Shown: one piece after another, positions 6,785-21,631 of the stretch
Numbering within the stretch: position 1 is the first letter of the stretch
Layout of the letters: the number at the start of each line of letters is the position of its first letter
IMG/VR virus record: IMGVR_UViG_3300031576_000283
Coordinates: 1-21,631 of that record
Source: a virus
DNA length: 21,631 bases
Reading direction: 5' to 3' (one strand)
Notes under the pieces: model-generated
What the model was told of the DNA's origin: nothing
Databases searched by the model: none
The model's input: only the letters and a program-made list of their open reading frames with translations
Program-made: the position numbers and the translations under genes

Positions 6785-7705
6785 GTGTCTGACCGAGTGC
6801 CGATCGGGACGATTCCCGGGGCGGTCCTGCCCTGGGTCGGCGTCGATCTCGCGCTCGCGAGCTTCGGCCGTGCCGCGACCATCTCGCGGCTCTTCCTGGT
6901 CCGCCGAGGTCAGGCCGGGGGCGACGTCGTCTCGGGCTCGCTCCGCGACGCCACGGGCGGCGGCGGCTCTGGGATCGCCTGGAGCTTCGCCCCGGGTGCC
7001 GCCACCGCGGTCGCGACCGGAGCGCTCGCGATCTCCGCGGCGGAATCGGTCTATCTGCGAATCACCGCCGCCGACGCGAATAGCCAGGACCTGCGCGGCT
7101 GGTTCGAGGTCACGGGCGCGGCCGGGGTGACGACGGCCTTGACTTCGCTCGTGCGCGTGAAGGCCTGGCGCGGGATCGTGACCAGCGCGCAGGATGCGCT
7201 GCTCGAGGAGGTGATCGCCGGGGTCTCGGCCCGGATGCAGTCCTTCCTACACCGGCGGATCGTCGCCGAGGATCTCATCGCCGAGCTCTACGACGGGCCC
7301 CGCGGCGATACGCTGACGCTCCGAGCCTTCCCGGTCCAGGACCCCGGGGCGCTGGTCGTCCGCGAGGGTGGGGTCGTCGTCGCGAGCTCCGAGTACGTCG
7401 TCCGCGCCCCGGCCGGGCAGATCGTCCGGGTCTCGAACGGCGAGGCCGGAAGCTGGGAACGCGGGCGCCTGAACGTCTCGGTCGACTATCAAGCGGGCTA
7501 CGACGAGGTTCCCGAAGACCTGGCGCTCGCCGCGACGCGCCAGGCGGCCTACGTCTCGCTCGAGACGCCCGCCGGAAACGCCGGACGACTCGGGAACCGC
7601 GGCACCGCGCTCGAGACGGGCGGCAGCTCGGAATACGTGACGACCGAATGGCTCCCGGGCGTGCTCGCGACGCTCGAGGGCTATCGCGATCGGAGGCTCG
7701 CATGA
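6785..7705 (+). CDS. head-tail connector (gp6-like) with extra N-terminal beta domain
   Basis: The C-terminal part (about residues 115-306) matches the HK97 gp6/gp15-like connector pattern: a helical start (TSAQDALLEEVIAGVSARMQ), FLHRRIVAEDLIAELYDGP, LRAFPVQDPGALVVREGG, SEYVVRAPAGQIVRVSNG, and NVSVDYQAGYDEVPEDLALA. These proteins form the ring under the portal. Residues 1-112 are not usual for the family: they read as a beta-rich unit (ATISRLFLVRRGQAGGDVV, VYLRITAADANSQDLRGWFE) like beta-sandwich decoration domains of virion proteins. The total of 306 aa exceeds the about 100-200 aa typical of connectors. Start GTG 6785 has GGAGGG at 6773-6778. The stop overlaps the next ATG (ATGA). Confidence 0.82.
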   Translation: MSDRVPIGTIPGAVLPWVGVDLALASFGRAATISRLFLVRRGQAGGDVVSGSLRDATGGGGSGIAWSFAPGAATAVATGALAISAAESVYLRITAADANSQDLRGWFEVTGAAGVTTALTSLVRVKAWRGIVTSAQDALLEEVIAGVSARMQSFLHRRIVAEDLIAELYDGPRGDTLTLRAFPVQDPGALVVREGGVVVASSEYVVRAPAGQIVRVSNGEAGSWERGRLNVSVDYQAGYDEVPEDLALAATRQAAYVSLETPAGNAGRLGNRGTALETGGSSEYVTTEWLPGVLATLEGYRDRRLA

Positions 7706-8169
7706 GACGTCTGCTCGCTCTGTTTCTCGTACTGGTCTGGGTGGCGCCGGCCGCCGCCCAGAGCTGGGCCAACCCCGAGAGCCCGAACTCCGTCCTGTGT
7801 CAGGCTGCTCCTGGCACCGGCGATGCGACCTGCCCGATTTTCACGCTGCCGGCGCTCTACAAAGGCTTCTGCGCCTATGCTTTCGACAACGCCTCGGGCG
7901 CTTCGACCTGGAACCTCGACCTCGTCGCCCTCATCGGTAACGACCTCGAACCCTTCAACTGGACGGTCGCCGGCGGCGCATCCAAGGCGGCGGCGAACGA
8001 GGGCGCGAGCTGCTGGTATCCGACCACGATTACGACGCTGCCGACGATCTTCGGTGCCGCGATTGCCGACCAGGTCGTGACCACGATCCCGACCCGGCTG
8101 CGGATTGTGATCGACAAGACCGCCGCCGTCTCGACCCAGTTCTCGCTCTACCTCTACTTCCTGCGCTAG
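7702..8169 (+). CDS. secreted small beta-rich protein with signal peptide
   Basis: The 155-aa product starts with a clear Sec signal peptide: MRR, the hydrophobic core LLALFLVLVWV, then APAAA before a probable cut at A19/Q20. The mature part has four cysteines (33, 44, 57, 104), enough for two disulfides, and alternating hydrophobic strands ending RLRIVIDKTAAVSTQFSLYL, like a beta-sandwich decoration protein. ATG 7702 overlaps the connector stop (ATGA) and has GGAGG at 7692-7696. It sits where a head-closure stopper protein is usually encoded, yet export would keep it away from cytoplasmic assembly. I do not recognise the family. It could be a lysogenic-conversion or surface protein, or a virion protein that joins after lysis. 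Confidence 0.75.
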   Translation: MRRLLALFLVLVWVAPAAAQSWANPESPNSVLCQAAPGTGDATCPIFTLPALYKGFCAYAFDNASGASTWNLDLVALIGNDLEPFNWTVAGGASKAAANEGASCWYPTTITTLPTIFGAAIADQVVTTIPTRLRIVIDKTAAVSTQFSLYLYFLR

Positions 8170-16572: not shown

Positions 16573-18852
16573 ATGGCGACGATGCGTCACCACCTCGGGC
16601 GCGCCCTTCCGCTCGCGCTGTCTGCTCTTTGCCTCGGCTTGGCGGCTCCCGGCCAGGCTGCCCCGGTCCCCGGCGGGAAGGTCCTGACGCTCCGCGGGAA
16701 TGCTCTGCCCGGAGGCGACGAGGAGACCCTCTCCGCGCTCTACGAGCTCCGCACGTTCTCCGGCCTGAATGGAAACCAGTTCCTTAGCCAGATGTGGGCG
16801 GACCCGTACCGCGGGAGCGATACCACGGGGACCGGGAGCTTCGCGGCGCCCTTCAAGAGCTTCGCGAAGCTCAAGGCCGAGTGCCTTGCGAAGCCCCACA
16901 TGCGCTGCACCGTCAAGGGCAGCGGGCGCGGGCGCGTGTTCTCGCCGCTCACGTATACGGTGTCTGGCATCGCTGGCGGGGAGAGCTTCCAGCACGGAGA
17001 GGGCGTCACCTGGTCGGGCTCGACCGGGACCGTGCTCGATTGGGATGGCTCGACGAATACGATCGTCCTCGCGAGGCTCACCGGCACGGATCCTGCTTTG
17101 AGCGTCGCCCTGACCGGGGCACAGTCCGGGGCGACCGCGACCACCGCGACTCGCGCCGACACGCTCGGCGGGCACCCGACGATCACCCCGACGGCGATCG
17201 ATACGGCCGCGAATACCTTCACCTTCACCGCTCACCCGTACACGAACAACCAGGGCCCGCTGCGCTTCTTCCAGTCGGGCTCGAGCGTGACGGGGGTCAC
17301 GGAAGGGACGGACTACTACGCCTGCGCGGTCGCTGCCAACACGTTTACTGTCCAGACGAGCTCGACCTGCGCGGGCGCAGCGGCCGATCTCGGCGGCACG
17401 GTCGACGGCCAGTGGACGGGGGCGTCGAACGTCGGAGTGATTACCCCGCTGGCGCCGGTGTGCACGAACCGGGACCGCATCTGCTCGCTCCTCGAGTCGG
17501 AGGATCCAGACTCGCCGGCGACGCTCGACGCGAACGGGTTCTATCCCGTGGGGGTCTCCTACGCGGAAGCCTCGGCCGACTTCTGGCCGAGCGACTTCAA
17601 CATCGGGGGAATGCTCTCCGTCGACGGGACGCTCGCGGGAGGCTTTCTGGGGATCCAGAACCTCGTGATCCAAAACGTCGCCCACGACGCCTTCGGAAGT
17701 CTGGGTCCCGGGAAGCTCATCGCTCTCAACCTAGAGACCTTGAATATCCGCAACGGGGCGAGCGACCGGAGCACCGGCTCCGCGGCGACTGCCCACAACT
17801 CGTGCGTGATCGCGACCGCCGAGGGGGGCACGGGGCTCGGCTCGGTCGTCTACTGGCTGAACGGTCGCGGCAGCAATGACCAGGGCAGCAGCATTGCCTC
17901 GGGGTCTTGCTTGAACCCGAACCAGGAGGGCGCGCTGCGCCTGATCTCGCGCGGCGAGTTCTCGACCGACGTGATCGCCGGCGACACCAACTGCGGGGGC
18001 GGGCAGTGTCCGGGAAACATCATGGTGGCCCCGGGCGGGGATACCGTGGTCCTCGGTCCGACGCTGACCAGCATCGCGGGCGCCCATGCGTCCCACTTCA
18101 TCACGAGCAACCACGCCGAATCGACCGGCCCGAAGACGCGAAAGCAATTCTACCGGGCGCTCTGGAACGTCCGGAACACAGGCAGCGGTTCCGGGGCGTT
18201 CCAGTGGACTGCGAACAACGCCATCACCGAAGTCTTCCTCAACGAGGTCACGATCCGGCACGCGGGGAGCGGCAGCGCGGCGGCCTTCGTCTCGTGCGGA
18301 TTCTGCTTCGACGAGGACTGCACGGGCTCGGGCGGACCCGCGACCGACGGTCAGGGCCTCTTCGATCTAAGAAACCTGCTGATCGACAACGCGCCCTATT
18401 GGTGGTACGGGAGCGACTGCGGAAACCCGAACCTCGACCCCGACAGCTCGATCTCTAAAGTCCGGATGCACTGGTCGGGGATCTACGACGACGAGGACGC
18501 CGCCGGCGGCGACGCGACCGAGTGGTTCCACAACCCCACGGCCTACGCCACGCGGACGACCTACCGCTCCGCGCAGATCGCTCTTCTGACCGACGACGAC
18601 CGCTGGAACTTCCTCGAGGCGGGGAGCTTCAACTCCGGCGCAGGCGCCGACGGAACGCAGTGGGGAACCGACGCGGCCTTCCGCTGCCAGGCCGGTCAGG
18701 AGTGCTACCACGCCGCCTCCGGAGGGCCGTACCTCGCGGACTTCTCGTCGGTCTACGGATCCGACAGCGACGACGCTTGCCTCCCGGCCGACGTTCTCGG
18801 CGCCCCGGTCTGCGGTCTCGAGCTCGTCCCGACCCACATCGGCGGCAGATAG
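16573..18852 (+). CDS. exported Cys-rich beta-helix protein (large)
   Basis: The 759-aa product has a Sec signal peptide: MATMRHHLGR, then PLALSALCLGLAAPGQA with a likely cut at A29/A30. An ATG at 16582 (fourth codon) is an equally good start. The mature part opens with WADPYRGSDTTGTGSFAAPF and KSFAKLKAEC, the entry motif of many parallel beta-helix (DUF1565/pectate-lyase-like) proteins, and later shows rung-like repeats (LGIQNLVIQNVAHDAFG, LNLETLNIRNGASD, ITEVFLNEVTIRHAGS, LFDLRNLLIDNAPYWW). I count 18 cysteines after the signal, an even number consistent with disulfides outside the cytoplasm. It stands where tail fibres or spikes are expected. No polysaccharide lyase or hydrolase residues can be assigned. 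It may be a surface adhesin or a spike-like protein; codon use looks slightly less G+C-biased than in the head genes. Confidence 0.72.
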   Translation: MATMRHHLGRALPLALSALCLGLAAPGQAAPVPGGKVLTLRGNALPGGDEETLSALYELRTFSGLNGNQFLSQMWADPYRGSDTTGTGSFAAPFKSFAKLKAECLAKPHMRCTVKGSGRGRVFSPLTYTVSGIAGGESFQHGEGVTWSGSTGTVLDWDGSTNTIVLARLTGTDPALSVALTGAQSGATATTATRADTLGGHPTITPTAIDTAANTFTFTAHPYTNNQGPLRFFQSGSSVTGVTEGTDYYACAVAANTFTVQTSSTCAGAAADLGGTVDGQWTGASNVGVITPLAPVCTNRDRICSLLESEDPDSPATLDANGFYPVGVSYAEASADFWPSDFNIGGMLSVDGTLAGGFLGIQNLVIQNVAHDAFGSLGPGKLIALNLETLNIRNGASDRSTGSAATAHNSCVIATAEGGTGLGSVVYWLNGRGSNDQGSSIASGSCLNPNQEGALRLISRGEFSTDVIAGDTNCGGGQCPGNIMVAPGGDTVVLGPTLTSIAGAHASHFITSNHAESTGPKTRKQFYRALWNVRNTGSGSGAFQWTANNAITEVFLNEVTIRHAGSGSAAAFVSCGFCFDEDCTGSGGPATDGQGLFDLRNLLIDNAPYWWYGSDCGNPNLDPDSSISKVRMHWSGIYDDEDAAGGDATEWFHNPTAYATRTTYRSAQIALLTDDDRWNFLEAGSFNSGAGADGTQWGTDAAFRCQAGQECYHAASGGPYLADFSSVYGSDSDDACLPADVLGAPVCGLELVPTHIGGR

Positions 18853-18860
18853 GGCTGCAG

Positions 18861-19958
18861 GTGCGTGGTCACGTTCTGAGCCTCTGGCTCGCGCTCTTCG
18901 CCGGCGCGGCGCGCGCGGAAGAGGTCCCGATCGAGCTGGCGTCGGTCGTCGCAAACCAGTGCGGGCCCGAGGGCTACCGGCCGGACGGCGGCTGCGCGAT
19001 TGAGCTTGGCGATGGGACCTACACGGTCGCAGCGACCGTGCGCCTCGGGCGCTGCGAAGCGGGTGCCAACGGCACTCGCAACAGTGTGGCTCTCGTCGGC
19101 CAGGGAGCCGGGCTCTTCGCCACGGTCCCGAGGTTCACGACCGCCGGCACGACGCTGCGCTGGACCGGGCCGCCGGGCGTGCCGATGCTCGAGGTCTGCG
19201 GCTCGTGGCTGACGCTTCAGCACCTAGCGATCGACGGCAAGGGGGCCTCGCACTGTATCCGGCTGCTGGGCCATAACGCGGGCTCTGCGATCCACCACTT
19301 TCCGCGCCTGGCCTCGCTGGCGCTCTCCGGCTGCGGGATCGGCGTCGAGGTCACCGGAAGCGATCGCGACGACCAGGTCGATTTCGTCCAGCTCGAGCGC
19401 GTCTCGATCACCGAGGTGGACGTCTGCTACTCGCAGGACTCGCAACAGTCGGTCGCTGGACGCGTCGAAACGGTCGAGTGCGTCGCGCGTCGCAAGGGCT
19501 TCGAGCTTCGAGGCGGGAGCCTCGACTGCGACGGCTGCTATGTCGGGAACATGGCGCGCGCCGACGGGACCTGGGATCCGGCCTTCGTGGGGTTCCACTT
19601 CACGAGCTCGGCGCGGGTCGACGGGCGCTCGTTCTCGCACCACCAAGCCGAGATCGAGGCCTCCCACCTGGAGCTTCGCACCGGCCGCTTCATCGTCGGC
19701 GACGTCTCCGCGAACCCCTACCCGCTGCGGCTCGTCGGAAACTCGTTCTTGCTCCAGTGCCAGGCGCCCGGCTGCGAGATGGGGGTCGTCGAGTGGCGCG
19801 GGAAGGCCCCGGTCGTGATGCAGGCAAACACCGTGCAGGCCTCGACGCCGTACCCGAGCGCTCCGCCGTCGGGGCGCTTCTGCGCGCCCGCAGGCTGGCG
19901 GAATACCGGGAACGTGCGCAAGCCCGAGGTTCGTGCGCTCGTCTGGACCTGCCCGTGA
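18861..19958 (+). CDS. exported Cys-rich beta-helix protein (small)
   Basis: The 365-aa product starts at GTG 18861, eight bases after the previous stop, which gives a signal peptide MRGHVLSLWLALFAGAARA with a cut at A19/E20. The frame is open upstream, but only inside the previous gene. The mature protein has pectin-lyase-like features: CAIELGDGTYTVAATVRLG near the N-terminus (the IxLxdGtYtl entry of beta-helices), SVALVGQGAG, SWLTLQHLAIDGKGASHCIR, LASLALSGCGIGVEVTGSDR, VQLERVSITEVD and ASHLELRTGRFIVGDVSANP. Fourteen cysteines (even) suggest disulfides. It appears to be a partner or diverged relative of the preceding protein in layout. Enzyme activity is not evident. Its stop overlaps the next ATG (TGATG). 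Confidence 0.72.
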   Translation: MRGHVLSLWLALFAGAARAEEVPIELASVVANQCGPEGYRPDGGCAIELGDGTYTVAATVRLGRCEAGANGTRNSVALVGQGAGLFATVPRFTTAGTTLRWTGPPGVPMLEVCGSWLTLQHLAIDGKGASHCIRLLGHNAGSAIHHFPRLASLALSGCGIGVEVTGSDRDDQVDFVQLERVSITEVDVCYSQDSQQSVAGRVETVECVARRKGFELRGGSLDCDGCYVGNMARADGTWDPAFVGFHFTSSARVDGRSFSHHQAEIEASHLELRTGRFIVGDVSANPYPLRLVGNSFLLQCQAPGCEMGVVEWRGKAPVVMQANTVQASTPYPSAPPSGRFCAPAGWRNTGNVRKPEVRALVWTCP

Positions 19959-20320
19959 TGCGCCTCGACCAGTGGATCCCGTCGCTCGTCTCGGCCGTGC
20001 TGGTCGTCGGCGCGCTCGGATCCTTCGCGCTCGCGAACGAAGGCCGGATCTCCTCGCTCGAGTCGAAAATGTCCGCGATGGAATCCGGCCGCTCGACACC
20101 GATGGCCGACTCGACGCGCGAGCGCTTCGACGCGCTCGCGCACCAGCTCGATAGCCTCGACGCCGGGATCGGGCGGCTCGAGCTGCGCCTCGACTCGCAC
20201 TCGGAGCGCGTGTCGCGGATCGAAGGCAAGCTCTTCCCCGAGAAGCGGAGCGGAGTCGCGCTCCCGAAGCCTCCGATCACGCCCACGCGGGGGGCCGCGT
20301 CGCGCGAGCAGGGCGGATGA
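19958..20320 (+). CDS. membrane-anchored coiled-coil protein (inner spanin-like candidate)
   Basis: The 120-aa product starts at the ATG overlapping the previous TGA (TGATG). One transmembrane helix, IPSLVSAVLVVGALGSFALA (residues 7-26), is followed by a long heptad-rich region: GRISSLESKMSAMES, then FDALAHQLDSLDAGIGRLEL and HSERVSRIEGKLF. The tail is Pro/Arg-rich. This topology, an inner-membrane anchor with a periplasmic coiled coil, next to an endolysin and a lipoprotein, resembles an inner-membrane spanin; a holin is less likely with a single helix and long coil. The GTG three bases earlier (19955) is also in frame. Confidence 0.62.
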   Translation: MRLDQWIPSLVSAVLVVGALGSFALANEGRISSLESKMSAMESGRSTPMADSTRERFDALAHQLDSLDAGIGRLELRLDSHSERVSRIEGKLFPEKRSGVALPKPPITPTRGAASREQGG

Positions 20321-20664
20321 CCGGGCTCCTCGAACGTCAGCAGCTCTTCGCCGGCCTTTTGGTCGAGCTCATCGACCGCGCCGCCGAGCTCGGCTACGGG
20401 GTCACGCTCGGCGAGGTCTACCGGCCCGACGCGACCGTCGAGCTCACCGCCCTGGCCGGGCGCGGGTCGCGCGCGAGCCTTCATCCGCTGCGCCTGGCCG
20501 TCGACCTGCACCTGTTTCGAGGCGCGGTCTATCTGACACGGACCGAGGATCACCGCGAGCTCGGCCTGTGGTGGGAGAACCGGAACGCGCTCTGCCGCTG
20601 GGGCGGGCGCTTCGCTCTGCCCGACGGAAACCACTACTCGCTCGAGTGGGAGGGCCGGGCATGA
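20317..20664 (+). CDS. endolysin, M15-family D-alanyl-D-alanine/L-alanyl-D-glutamate peptidase
   Basis: This 115-aa zinc peptidase cleaves peptide bonds of peptidoglycan at lysis. The core motif SLHPLRLAVDLHLF (residues 54-67) supplies His56 and Asp63 (the SxHxxxxAxD signature), and GNHYSLEW supplies the third ligand, His106, close to the C-terminus. Other hallmarks: GYGVTLGEVYRPD (27-39), YLTRTEDHRELGLWWEN and CRWGGRF (93-99), typical of the compact phage subgroup. Length is normal for a single-domain enzyme, with no cell-wall-binding domain, as usual in phages of Gram-negative hosts. There is no signal peptide, so a holin or other export route is needed. The start overlaps the previous stop (ATGA) with a GGGCGG before it. 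Confidence 0.92.
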   Translation: MTGLLERQQLFAGLLVELIDRAAELGYGVTLGEVYRPDATVELTALAGRGSRASLHPLRLAVDLHLFRGAVYLTRTEDHRELGLWWENRNALCRWGGRFALPDGNHYSLEWEGRA

Positions 20665-20975
20665 GCGTGAGTCGCGACCTGGTCGACGCCCTGGTTGGGG
20701 CCGTCCTGGTCTTCGTCCTGGCGACCGCCCTCGGGCTCGCGCTGGCCTGGCTCGCGGGCTGCGCCTCGTTCGGACAGCGCTGCCGCTATGACGCTGCCGG
20801 GCGCCTGGTCGAGCAGGCGACGCGCTCGCTGGTCATCGGAACCGGCGAGACCGAGCTCGTGACCTCTGCCTGCGCGGCGCTCTCGTATGCGACCCAGGGC
20901 ACCGGGCTTTCCGACAACGGGCGCGCGGCGCTAGGGACCGTGGCCGAGGGCGCGGTCGCGGGAGCGCTGCCCTGA
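20661..20975 (+). CDS. predicted small lipoprotein in the lysis region
   Basis: The 104-aa product starts at an ATG overlapping the endolysin stop (ATGA). The hydrophobic segment LVGAVLVFVLATALGLALAW (residues 11-30) runs into LAGC (31-34), a good lipobox with Cys34 as the lipidated residue. The mature part, ASFGQRCRYDAAGRLVEQ and onward, ends with TGLSDNGRAALGTVAEGAVA; similar short proteins occur in phage lysis regions but have no proven role known to me. It could be an outer-membrane spanin partner for the coiled-coil protein two genes upstream, though it lacks the Pro-rich character of classical Rz1. A simple membrane anchor is the alternative. Confidence 0.62.
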   Translation: MSVSRDLVDALVGAVLVFVLATALGLALAWLAGCASFGQRCRYDAAGRLVEQATRSLVIGTGETELVTSACAALSYATQGTGLSDNGRAALGTVAEGAVAGALP

Positions 20976-21388
20976 ACCGCCGACTCGTCCGGGAAGAGCT
21001 CCGGGCCGAGCTCGAGCAGATTCCCGAGATCTTCCAGGATGACGGCTGTAGCGCGGCGCCGGATCAGATCCTTGGCATCTCCGTGCGCTCTGCCTGCCGC
21101 GCCCACGATTGGGCCTACTGCACCCGCGCGCATGCCCAGGGCGAGCTGGATCAGGCCTATCGCGGACGCGCAGATCGACTGCTCGGTCGCCGGATCCGGG
21201 CGCATCTCCCCTTCGGAATCGGCTGGGTCGGCTGGATCTACTGGCGCGCCGTCCATCGCTTCGGGGGGGATTCGGCTTTCGATTCCTGCGGCCCGGCGGC
21301 CGGCGCGAGCTGCCGGCACGGGATCGCGCCGCCCTCCTGGATGATCCGGCCTGCGCTGCGCGCGGCCTCGAGCGCCGCCTCGCTGTAG
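20972..21388 (+). CDS. phospholipase A2-like protein, probable CTG start
   Basis: The frame reads, from CTG 20972, a 138-aa protein with DDGCSAAPDQILG (residues 23-35) followed by ACRAHDWAYC (41-50). C42-x-x-H45-D46-x-x-Y49 is the CxxHDxxY catalytic motif of phospholipase A2-type enzymes, and the preceding Gly/Asp loop fits their calcium-binding segment. After it come a basic helix and a hydrophobic stretch, LPFGIGWVGWIYWRAVHRF. The only canonical start, GTG 21083, would remove the loop; CTG 20972 makes the same four-base overlap with the previous stop (CTGA) as ATGA elsewhere here. There is no signal peptide. Position in the lysis region suggests action on membrane lipids at lysis (inference). 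The 3' 151 bases overlap the convergent ORF. Confidence 0.68.
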   Translation: MNRRLVREELRAELEQIPEIFQDDGCSAAPDQILGISVRSACRAHDWAYCTRAHAQGELDQAYRGRADRLLGRRIRAHLPFGIGWVGWIYWRAVHRFGGDSAFDSCGPAAGASCRHGIAPPSWMIRPALRAASSAASL

Positions 21389-21630
21389 CGACGGTTCGCG
21401 GCGCTGCGCTGCTCGAGCCGCCGGCGTGCGGGGTTCGCGGCGCGCCGGCGGCTGGACTTCTCGCGGGCCTTCTCGGGGTTCGCGGCGTACCAGCGGCGGG
21501 ACTTCTCGCGGGCCTTCTCGGGGTTCGCGGCGCGCCAGCGGCGGGCCTGCTCGCGGGACTTCTCGCGGGCCTTCTCGGGGTTCGCGGCGCGCCAGCGGCG
21601 GGCCTGCTCGCGGGCCTTCTCGGGGGGCAC
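21238..21630 (-). CDS. Lys/Arg-rich tandem-repeat ORF, probably partial at the right edge
   Basis: On the - strand the frame from a GTG at 21630 reads repeats of the form RRWRAANPEKAREKS for about 65 residues, then an unrelated tail ending at 21238. Such NPEKxRE-type basic helical repeats occur in phage and bacterial proteins, often beside an HNH/endonuclease VII domain, but no such domain is visible here. The gene may continue to the right, so the true start is unknown. It runs convergent to the late operon and overlaps its last gene by 151 bases. The repeats make the reading on this strand likely; the last 50 residues, lying in the overlap, are less certain. Function unknown. Confidence 0.5.
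   Translation of the reverse strand: MPPEKAREQARRWRAANPEKAREKSREQARRWRAANPEKAREKSRRWYAANPEKAREKSSRRRAANPARRRLEQRSAANRRYSEAALEAARSAGRIIQEGGAIPCRQLAPAAGPQESKAESPPKRWTARQ
21430..21620 (-). repeat. in-frame tandem repeat, 45 and 57 bp units
   Basis: The plus-strand word GGGGTTCGCGGCG recurs at 21430, 21475, 21520 and 21577, spacings of 45, 45 and 57 bases; a further partial copy reaches the window end. All spacings are multiples of three, and the 57-bp unit equals a 45-bp unit plus 12 bp (REQA added). This fits unit duplication by slippage or unequal recombination inside a coding region, giving 15- and 19-residue protein repeats. Confidence 0.85.
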
Positions 21631-21631
21631 G

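Follow-up and report, generated by a model that had tools for sequence, protein, structure and literature searches.

The window analysed here, a 21,631-nt stretch of viral DNA (IMG/VR record IMGVR_UViG_3300031576_000283, positions 1 to 21,631), carries near its right end a chain of four plus-strand genes (19958-20320, 20317-20664, 20661-20975 and 20972-21388) whose successive overlaps read ATGA, ATGA and CTGA. The features of this region are as follows:

19958..20320, plus strand: candidate i-spanin or single-TM holin-like protein, 120 aa, assigned by topology only
20317..20664, plus strand: putative endolysin, M15-type peptidase, 115 aa, with an M15 profile match below the gathering cut-off; ATGA overlap with the upstream gene
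20661..20975, plus strand: small lipoprotein with lipobox LAG-C34, o-spanin-like by topology, read from the sequence; ATGA overlap with the endolysin stop
20960-20964, plus strand: Shine-Dalgarno-like GGGAG in the sequence, 7 nt 5' of the CTG start of the next gene
20972..21388, plus strand: phospholipase A2 (PLA2)-like enzyme, 138 aa, with Ca-loop D24-G25-C26, helix C42-xx-H45-D46-xx-Y49 and D68 on the second catalytic helix

The PLA2-like reading frame, whose translation opens LNRRLVREELRAELEQIPEIFQDDGCSAAPDQILGISVRSACRAHDWAYC, starts with CTG (20972-20974), a rare start type here preceded by a good Shine-Dalgarno sequence, and this codon shares the four bases CTGA with the stop of the lipoprotein gene. 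No in-frame ATG, GTG or TTG was present upstream of 21083, and the GTG at 21083 was rejected as a start, because it would cut off the conserved first helix and the DGC loop. The original prediction had held that the gene is translationally coupled to those of the endolysin and the lipoprotein; as four-base start/stop overlaps chain these genes, such coupling is structurally plausible. No promoter-like or terminator-like sites were found within 19900-21631. The contig ends 243 bp 3' of the PLA2 gene, within a tandem repeat of ~45 bp (21429-21625) that reads as EKAREKSRRWRAANP repeats on the minus strand; this repeat probably caused the assembly break.

The product of 19958..20320 has a single N-terminal hydrophobic segment followed by a charged coiled-coil-like region, and it gave a weak XhlA match (E 0.035), coiled-coil matches and phrog_1009 (E 0.0042). 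The endolysin matched Peptidase_M15_4 (E 4.6e-4, under the gathering cut-off) and a PHROG endolysin family (E 0.0056), and proteins 45-49% identical to it are encoded on two further viral contigs. The lipoprotein is 35-38% identical to the product of the gene immediately 5' of PLA2 in three T7-like contigs (L006, L007 and L009). A signal sequence was neither seen on the window endolysin nor visible on the window PLA2. Elsewhere in the window, three structural or late-region proteins (16573-18852, 18870-19958 and 7705-8169) have Sec-signal-like N-termini, for example MRRLLALFLVLVWVAPAAAQ and MATMRHHLGRALPLALSALCLGLAAPGQAAP, which is unusual for virion-region genes; none of the three products gave an informative Pfam match.

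The motif first read at this locus was borne out by the translation, which shows D24-G25-C26-S27..P30-D31 and C42xxH45D46xxY49, and a disulfide C26-C42 is predicted. When the single window sequence was searched against the PDB with phmmer, only PLA2s were returned (7ygk, 1.8e-5; 4aup, 6.4e-4; 8k1w, 0.0035; 1faz, 0.023). The Pfam family Phospholip_A2_3 (PF09056) scored 28.6 bits on this protein against a gathering score of 29.4, missing the cut-off by 0.8. The same four solved PLA2s were matched by the broad family profile at 7.5e-10 (4aup) and 2e-9 (1faz) to 6.6e-8, and by the window-like family profile at 2.4e-9 (8k1w) to 6.8e-5. Because these family-profile matches are strong, kinship with PF09056 is clear despite the missed Pfam threshold. 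The window protein had no match to DUF1353 (PF07087) at E<=1.

An alignment of 68 phage relatives showed C26, C42, H45, D46, Y49, D68, Y90, V94 and G98 to be invariant, and H45/D46 and D68 align with the catalytic His, the Ca-binding Asp and the dyad Asp of solved PLA2s. The AlphaFold2 model obtained with this alignment as input (pLDDT 88, pTM 0.79) places H45/D46 on a helix at 39-49 and D68 on a helix at 61-78. In a Foldseek search of the PDB, the Tuber borchii and Sciscionella PLA2s were found at probability 1.00 and nothing else was credible; E-values were modest (best 4.9e-3, TM about 0.5), with a match that is partial outside the core. The top match in a viral library was to a Vibrio phage protein with an existing PLA2 domain annotation, and the weak matches there include parvovirus VP1 proteins. 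Profile searches, structure prediction and H45/D46 conservation across the relatives thus all uphold the PLA2-like identity originally proposed, with PLA2 families matched, the two active-site helices predicted and a fold that matches solved PLA2s. Judged from its sequence and predicted model, the window protein is truly related to the secreted PLA2s of group XIV (bacterial/fungal). With the members of that group from Streptomyces violaceoruber (1faz/1lwb) and Tuber borchii (TbSP1, 4aup; PF09056) it has in common the DxC loop, the CxxHDxxY helix, the second-helix Asp, a like fold and two cysteines at the spacing of the conserved disulfide. Unlike them, it lacks a secretion signal, lies in a phage late operon and has an extra C-terminal Cys-His-W region.

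The relatives were found by profile-based scans alone. A single-sequence scan of viral contigs gave none, and tblastn of the window protein against INPHARED phages and against plasmids gave no real relative; a Pseudomonas Y13 match (tblastn, E<=10) was rejected as a chance frame. A first small profile (A1) detected 12 viral loci, and refined profiles detected 8 for the window-like group (A2) and 201 for a broader group (A3), of which 80 were kept. At least 200 viral contigs encode PLA2 relatives, and 22 further PLA2 loci were found on host-genome contigs, where profile A2 had no matches. Since DUF1353 is matched by 43 of the 68 relatives (E<=0.01) and Phospholip_A2_3 by 36 of the 68, the phage set bridges these two families. 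Note that PHROG 1158, labelled 'tail assembly chaperone', matches 54 of the 68 members, and that the relative in Thiohalocapsa phage LS06-2018-MD03 (locus L124, 3935-4354) is annotated as 'DNA binding protein'; both labels are likely wrong for the PLA2 group.

The genes around these relatives are a separate observation, because the PLA2 queries hold no lysis-gene sequence. We searched 48 records, a set partly picked for long contigs, over their whole length with four endolysin families (M15, GH108, GH24 and Amidase_2), and called neighbouring ORFs by a simple longest-first rule. Seventeen endolysin matches exceeded the curated cut-off, 13 of them within 500 bp of PLA2 where 0.7 would be expected (P about 1e-15 under uniform placement), and a strict lipobox test was passed by 19 of 100 same-strand immediate neighbours vs 0 of 393 distant ORFs (Fisher P 1.6e-14); both P-values overstate independence because the loci share ancestry and deduplication of the relatives went no further than 85% PLA2 identity. 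In 31 of the 48 records there was no above-cut-off match to the four endolysin families. Pfam searches of 145 near neighbours gave 17 peptidoglycan-hydrolase matches (M15_4, 8; GH108, 4; Amidase_2, 2; Phage_lysozyme, 2; Amidase_3, 1), and no peptidoglycan hydrolase was among the 25 most frequent of the 45 Pfam families of 145 distant ORFs, so that single matches may yet lie among the rest. The association of the gene with endolysins and lipoproteins is therefore strong, in keeping with the lysis-cassette setting first assigned to it.

Like cassettes with differing endolysin types recur across T7-like, siphovirus-like and prophage loci. T7-like contigs have the order lipoprotein, PLA2, (terminase small subunit), M15 endolysin; L012 has membrane protein, M15, lipoprotein, PLA2; and several deltaproteobacterial contigs have an Amidase_3-like gene, PLA2 and lipoprotein. 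The order is PLA2, GH108 in L010 and L011; PLA2, coiled-coil protein, amidase in L015; and GH24, PLA2 in L031. Elsewhere PLA2 is away from the endolysin (5 kb in L071, 6 kb in L097), adjoins head genes (L016) or comes after the terminase (Vibrio phage 1.097.O). A lipoprotein-like gene in three relatives (L006, 5475-5954; L007, 4511-4960; L018, 5499-5975) has its lipobox after an N-terminal coiled-coil region of ~45 residues, and either its start is misplaced or it is a fused holin-like/lipoprotein gene, possibly with dual starts. The labels of the 22 host-genome contigs name diderm bacteria in 21 cases (Desulfobacterota-type, Gammaproteobacteria, Campylobacterota, Bdellovibrionota-type and Gastranaerophilales), an archaeal MAG in one and Gram-positives in none; this small, clumped sample suits an enzyme aimed at a two-membrane envelope. 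The archaeal case (L106), a PLA2 contig with a GH108-like neighbour binned in a Candidatus Methanoperedens MAG, is either a misbinning or a phage-like element.

We next consider spanins. The Rz family PF03245 was found in none of the 48 PLA2-bearing records, which is not proof of spanin absence because this profile detects only some spanins. In the window, the 19958 product, a single-TM coiled-coil protein, and the 20661 lipoprotein are spanin-like by topology only, and PLA2 may therefore work alongside spanins. In Thiohalocapsa phage LS06-2018-MD03, PLA2 and an annotated Rz-like spanin lie ~4 kb apart, indicating that replacement of spanins by PLA2 is not general. The original prediction was of a lipid-cleaving lysis enzyme acting in addition to or instead of spanins: its first part is favoured by the PLA2 homology, the fold and the recurrent endolysin and lipoprotein neighbours, and the words 'instead of spanins' are weakened by the spanin-like candidates of the window and the Rz-like spanin of this one relative.

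Taken together, we consider it probable that the gene product is an active Ca-dependent PLA2 belonging to the group XIV/DUF1353 superfamily and acting as a lysis protein. Since similar genes adjoin the endolysin in many unrelated phages, phages probably use PLA2 in bursting diderm membranes. What we infer of catalysis, timing, Ca gating, membrane target and the role of the lipoprotein is as follows. PLA2 would be co-translated with endolysin and lipoprotein and, lacking a secretion signal, would gather harmlessly in the cytoplasm. With no signal peptide visible on the endolysin either, that enzyme too would wait there for the holin. Secreted PLA2s require Ca2+ at levels absent from the cytoplasm, and we propose that the phage tolerates PLA2 until lysis because free Ca2+ in the cytoplasm is very low. 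Opening of the inner membrane by the holin would admit both enzymes to the periplasm at once; the endolysin would cleave peptidoglycan, and PLA2, now supplied with Ca2+, would cleave phospholipids both in the inner membrane and in the outer membrane's inner leaflet. The lysophospholipids and fatty acids so released would destabilise the last barrier, beside or replacing spanin-driven membrane fusion. The neighbouring lipoprotein may be an o-spanin, or possibly recruits PLA2 to the outer membrane. In two relatives (L010, 5740-6282; L011, 5737-6279) an N-terminal membrane helix is fused to the PLA2 domain, and these genes overlap or abut the GH108 endolysin gene. The positive charges that flank the helix suggest a cytoplasmic PLA2 domain, a predicted topology that hints at an inner- rather than outer-membrane target and counts against outer-membrane action in the lysis reading above.

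Lipolytic enzymes have precedents in lysis. Mycobacteriophage LysB is a lipolytic lysis-cassette enzyme that acts on the outer layer; unlike the window PLA2, it is an alpha/beta-hydrolase esterase on mycolyl-arabinogalactan, and its hosts have a different outer membrane. In Wolbachia phage WO, a patatin-type phospholipase was proposed as a lysis enzyme (PMC9203015); its fold is unrelated to that of PLA2, and it replaces the endolysin in Wovirus, whereas the window PLA2 accompanies one. In colicin release, a bacteriocin release protein triggers OMPLA dimerisation (Dekker et al. 1999, cited in PMC4353708). This likewise partners a small lysis lipoprotein with an outer-membrane phospholipase A, though that phospholipase is a host beta-barrel and the window phage would supply its own soluble PLA2. 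In addition, Fusobacterium phage FNU1 has a DUF1353 gene and an amidase gene two genes apart (PMC6591296), one sentence on E. coli phage ST2 speculates that a phospholipase aids outer-membrane lysis (PMC9404725), and a toxin survey noted Tox-PLA2 domains in a Campylobacter phage (PMC3482391).

A link to a proven enzyme is given by TtaP, a DUF1353 PLA2 that hydrolyses PE/PG and is inactive as the catalytic-Asp mutant D85A (Gartly et al. 2024, PMC11525133). TtaP and the window protein are both small, PLA2-type proteins without signal peptide and with the same catalytic residues; TtaP lacks the cysteines of the window protein, and DUF1353 matches many of the phage relatives but not the window protein. 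The typhoid toxin islet in which TtaP is encoded also holds the gene of the phage-type muramidase TtsA, and the authors of that study pointed to the likeness of TtaP to prophage DUF1353 proteins and of the muramidase to prophage muramidases, and suspected a role in outer-membrane perturbation; a phage lysis function is not among their proposals in the text consulted. They observed no envelope defect upon TtaP expression in the host and no phenotype upon deletion, and found no role for it; this absent phenotype counts against the lysis reading of PLA2. In the literature searched, with subscription papers and preprints outside the search, we found no account of a group XIV/DUF1353 PLA2 as a recurrent part of phage lysis modules. 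The enzyme class itself is known already, and a part for phospholipases in phage lysis has been a matter of speculation.

Other readings were weighed against a lysis enzyme. Parvoviruses are known to use PLA2 for membrane penetration, their VP1 proteins acting at endosome escape, and their appearance among the weak fold matches, together with the tail or head genes that lie close to the gene in its T7-like and N4-like relatives, could point to a virion-associated PLA2 that aids genome passage across the host membrane at entry. We regard this as unlikely, since the PLA2 stands alone, without fusion to a structural protein, and across unrelated phages it keeps to the vicinity of endolysin and lipoprotein genes, not of any one structural gene. 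Decidedly unlikely, in our view, is a moron, a lysogenic-conversion enzyme of use to the lysogen or active outside the cell, as the secreted PLA2s encoded by some streptococcal prophages would suggest. The gene does lie at the operon end, as such an enzyme might; however, it has no signal peptide, no promoter or terminator of its own was found, its start is overlapped within the lysis operon, and the genome matches are labelled diderm (with one archaeal MAG) and have the same lysis neighbours.

A role in lysis without catalysis, the PLA2 fold being a scaffold or lipid binder, would agree with the partial fold match beyond the core and with TtaP, a cytoplasmic relative that leaves its own host undamaged (PMC11525133). 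The catalytic His and Asp and the Ca-binding Asp are, however, invariant in 68 divergent sequences, which is needless for a scaffold, and this distant relative is catalytically active, making a non-catalytic role very unlikely. Finally, the lysis adjacency might reflect shared late transcription only, with the enzyme remodelling lipids earlier in infection, for example in superinfection exclusion or membrane reorganisation. The gene does lie kilobases from the endolysin in several records; against this, the enrichment is seen in the genes directly next to it, and specifically for lysis and lipoprotein genes, not late genes generally, so that we hold earlier remodelling to be highly improbable.

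These results bear on a question of lysis biology, namely by what means phages lacking recognisable spanins get through the outer membrane. Beyond the lysis reading for this gene, which we prefer, it is conceivable, though we put it somewhat below an even chance, that phages of diderm hosts widely use a Ca-gated PLA2, often accompanied by a small lipoprotein, as a hitherto unrecognised membrane-breaking lysis component able to replace spanins; the muramidase and PLA2 of the typhoid toxin islet would then be a phage endolysin-PLA2 module that has been domesticated. If true, this would answer that question with a small, soluble catalyst whose gene adjoins that of the endolysin across many unrelated phages. 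Part of DUF1353 would thereby gain a function, the PHROG label 'tail assembly chaperone' would be corrected, and there would be a hypothesis on what the typhoid toxin islet's orphan PLA2 does.
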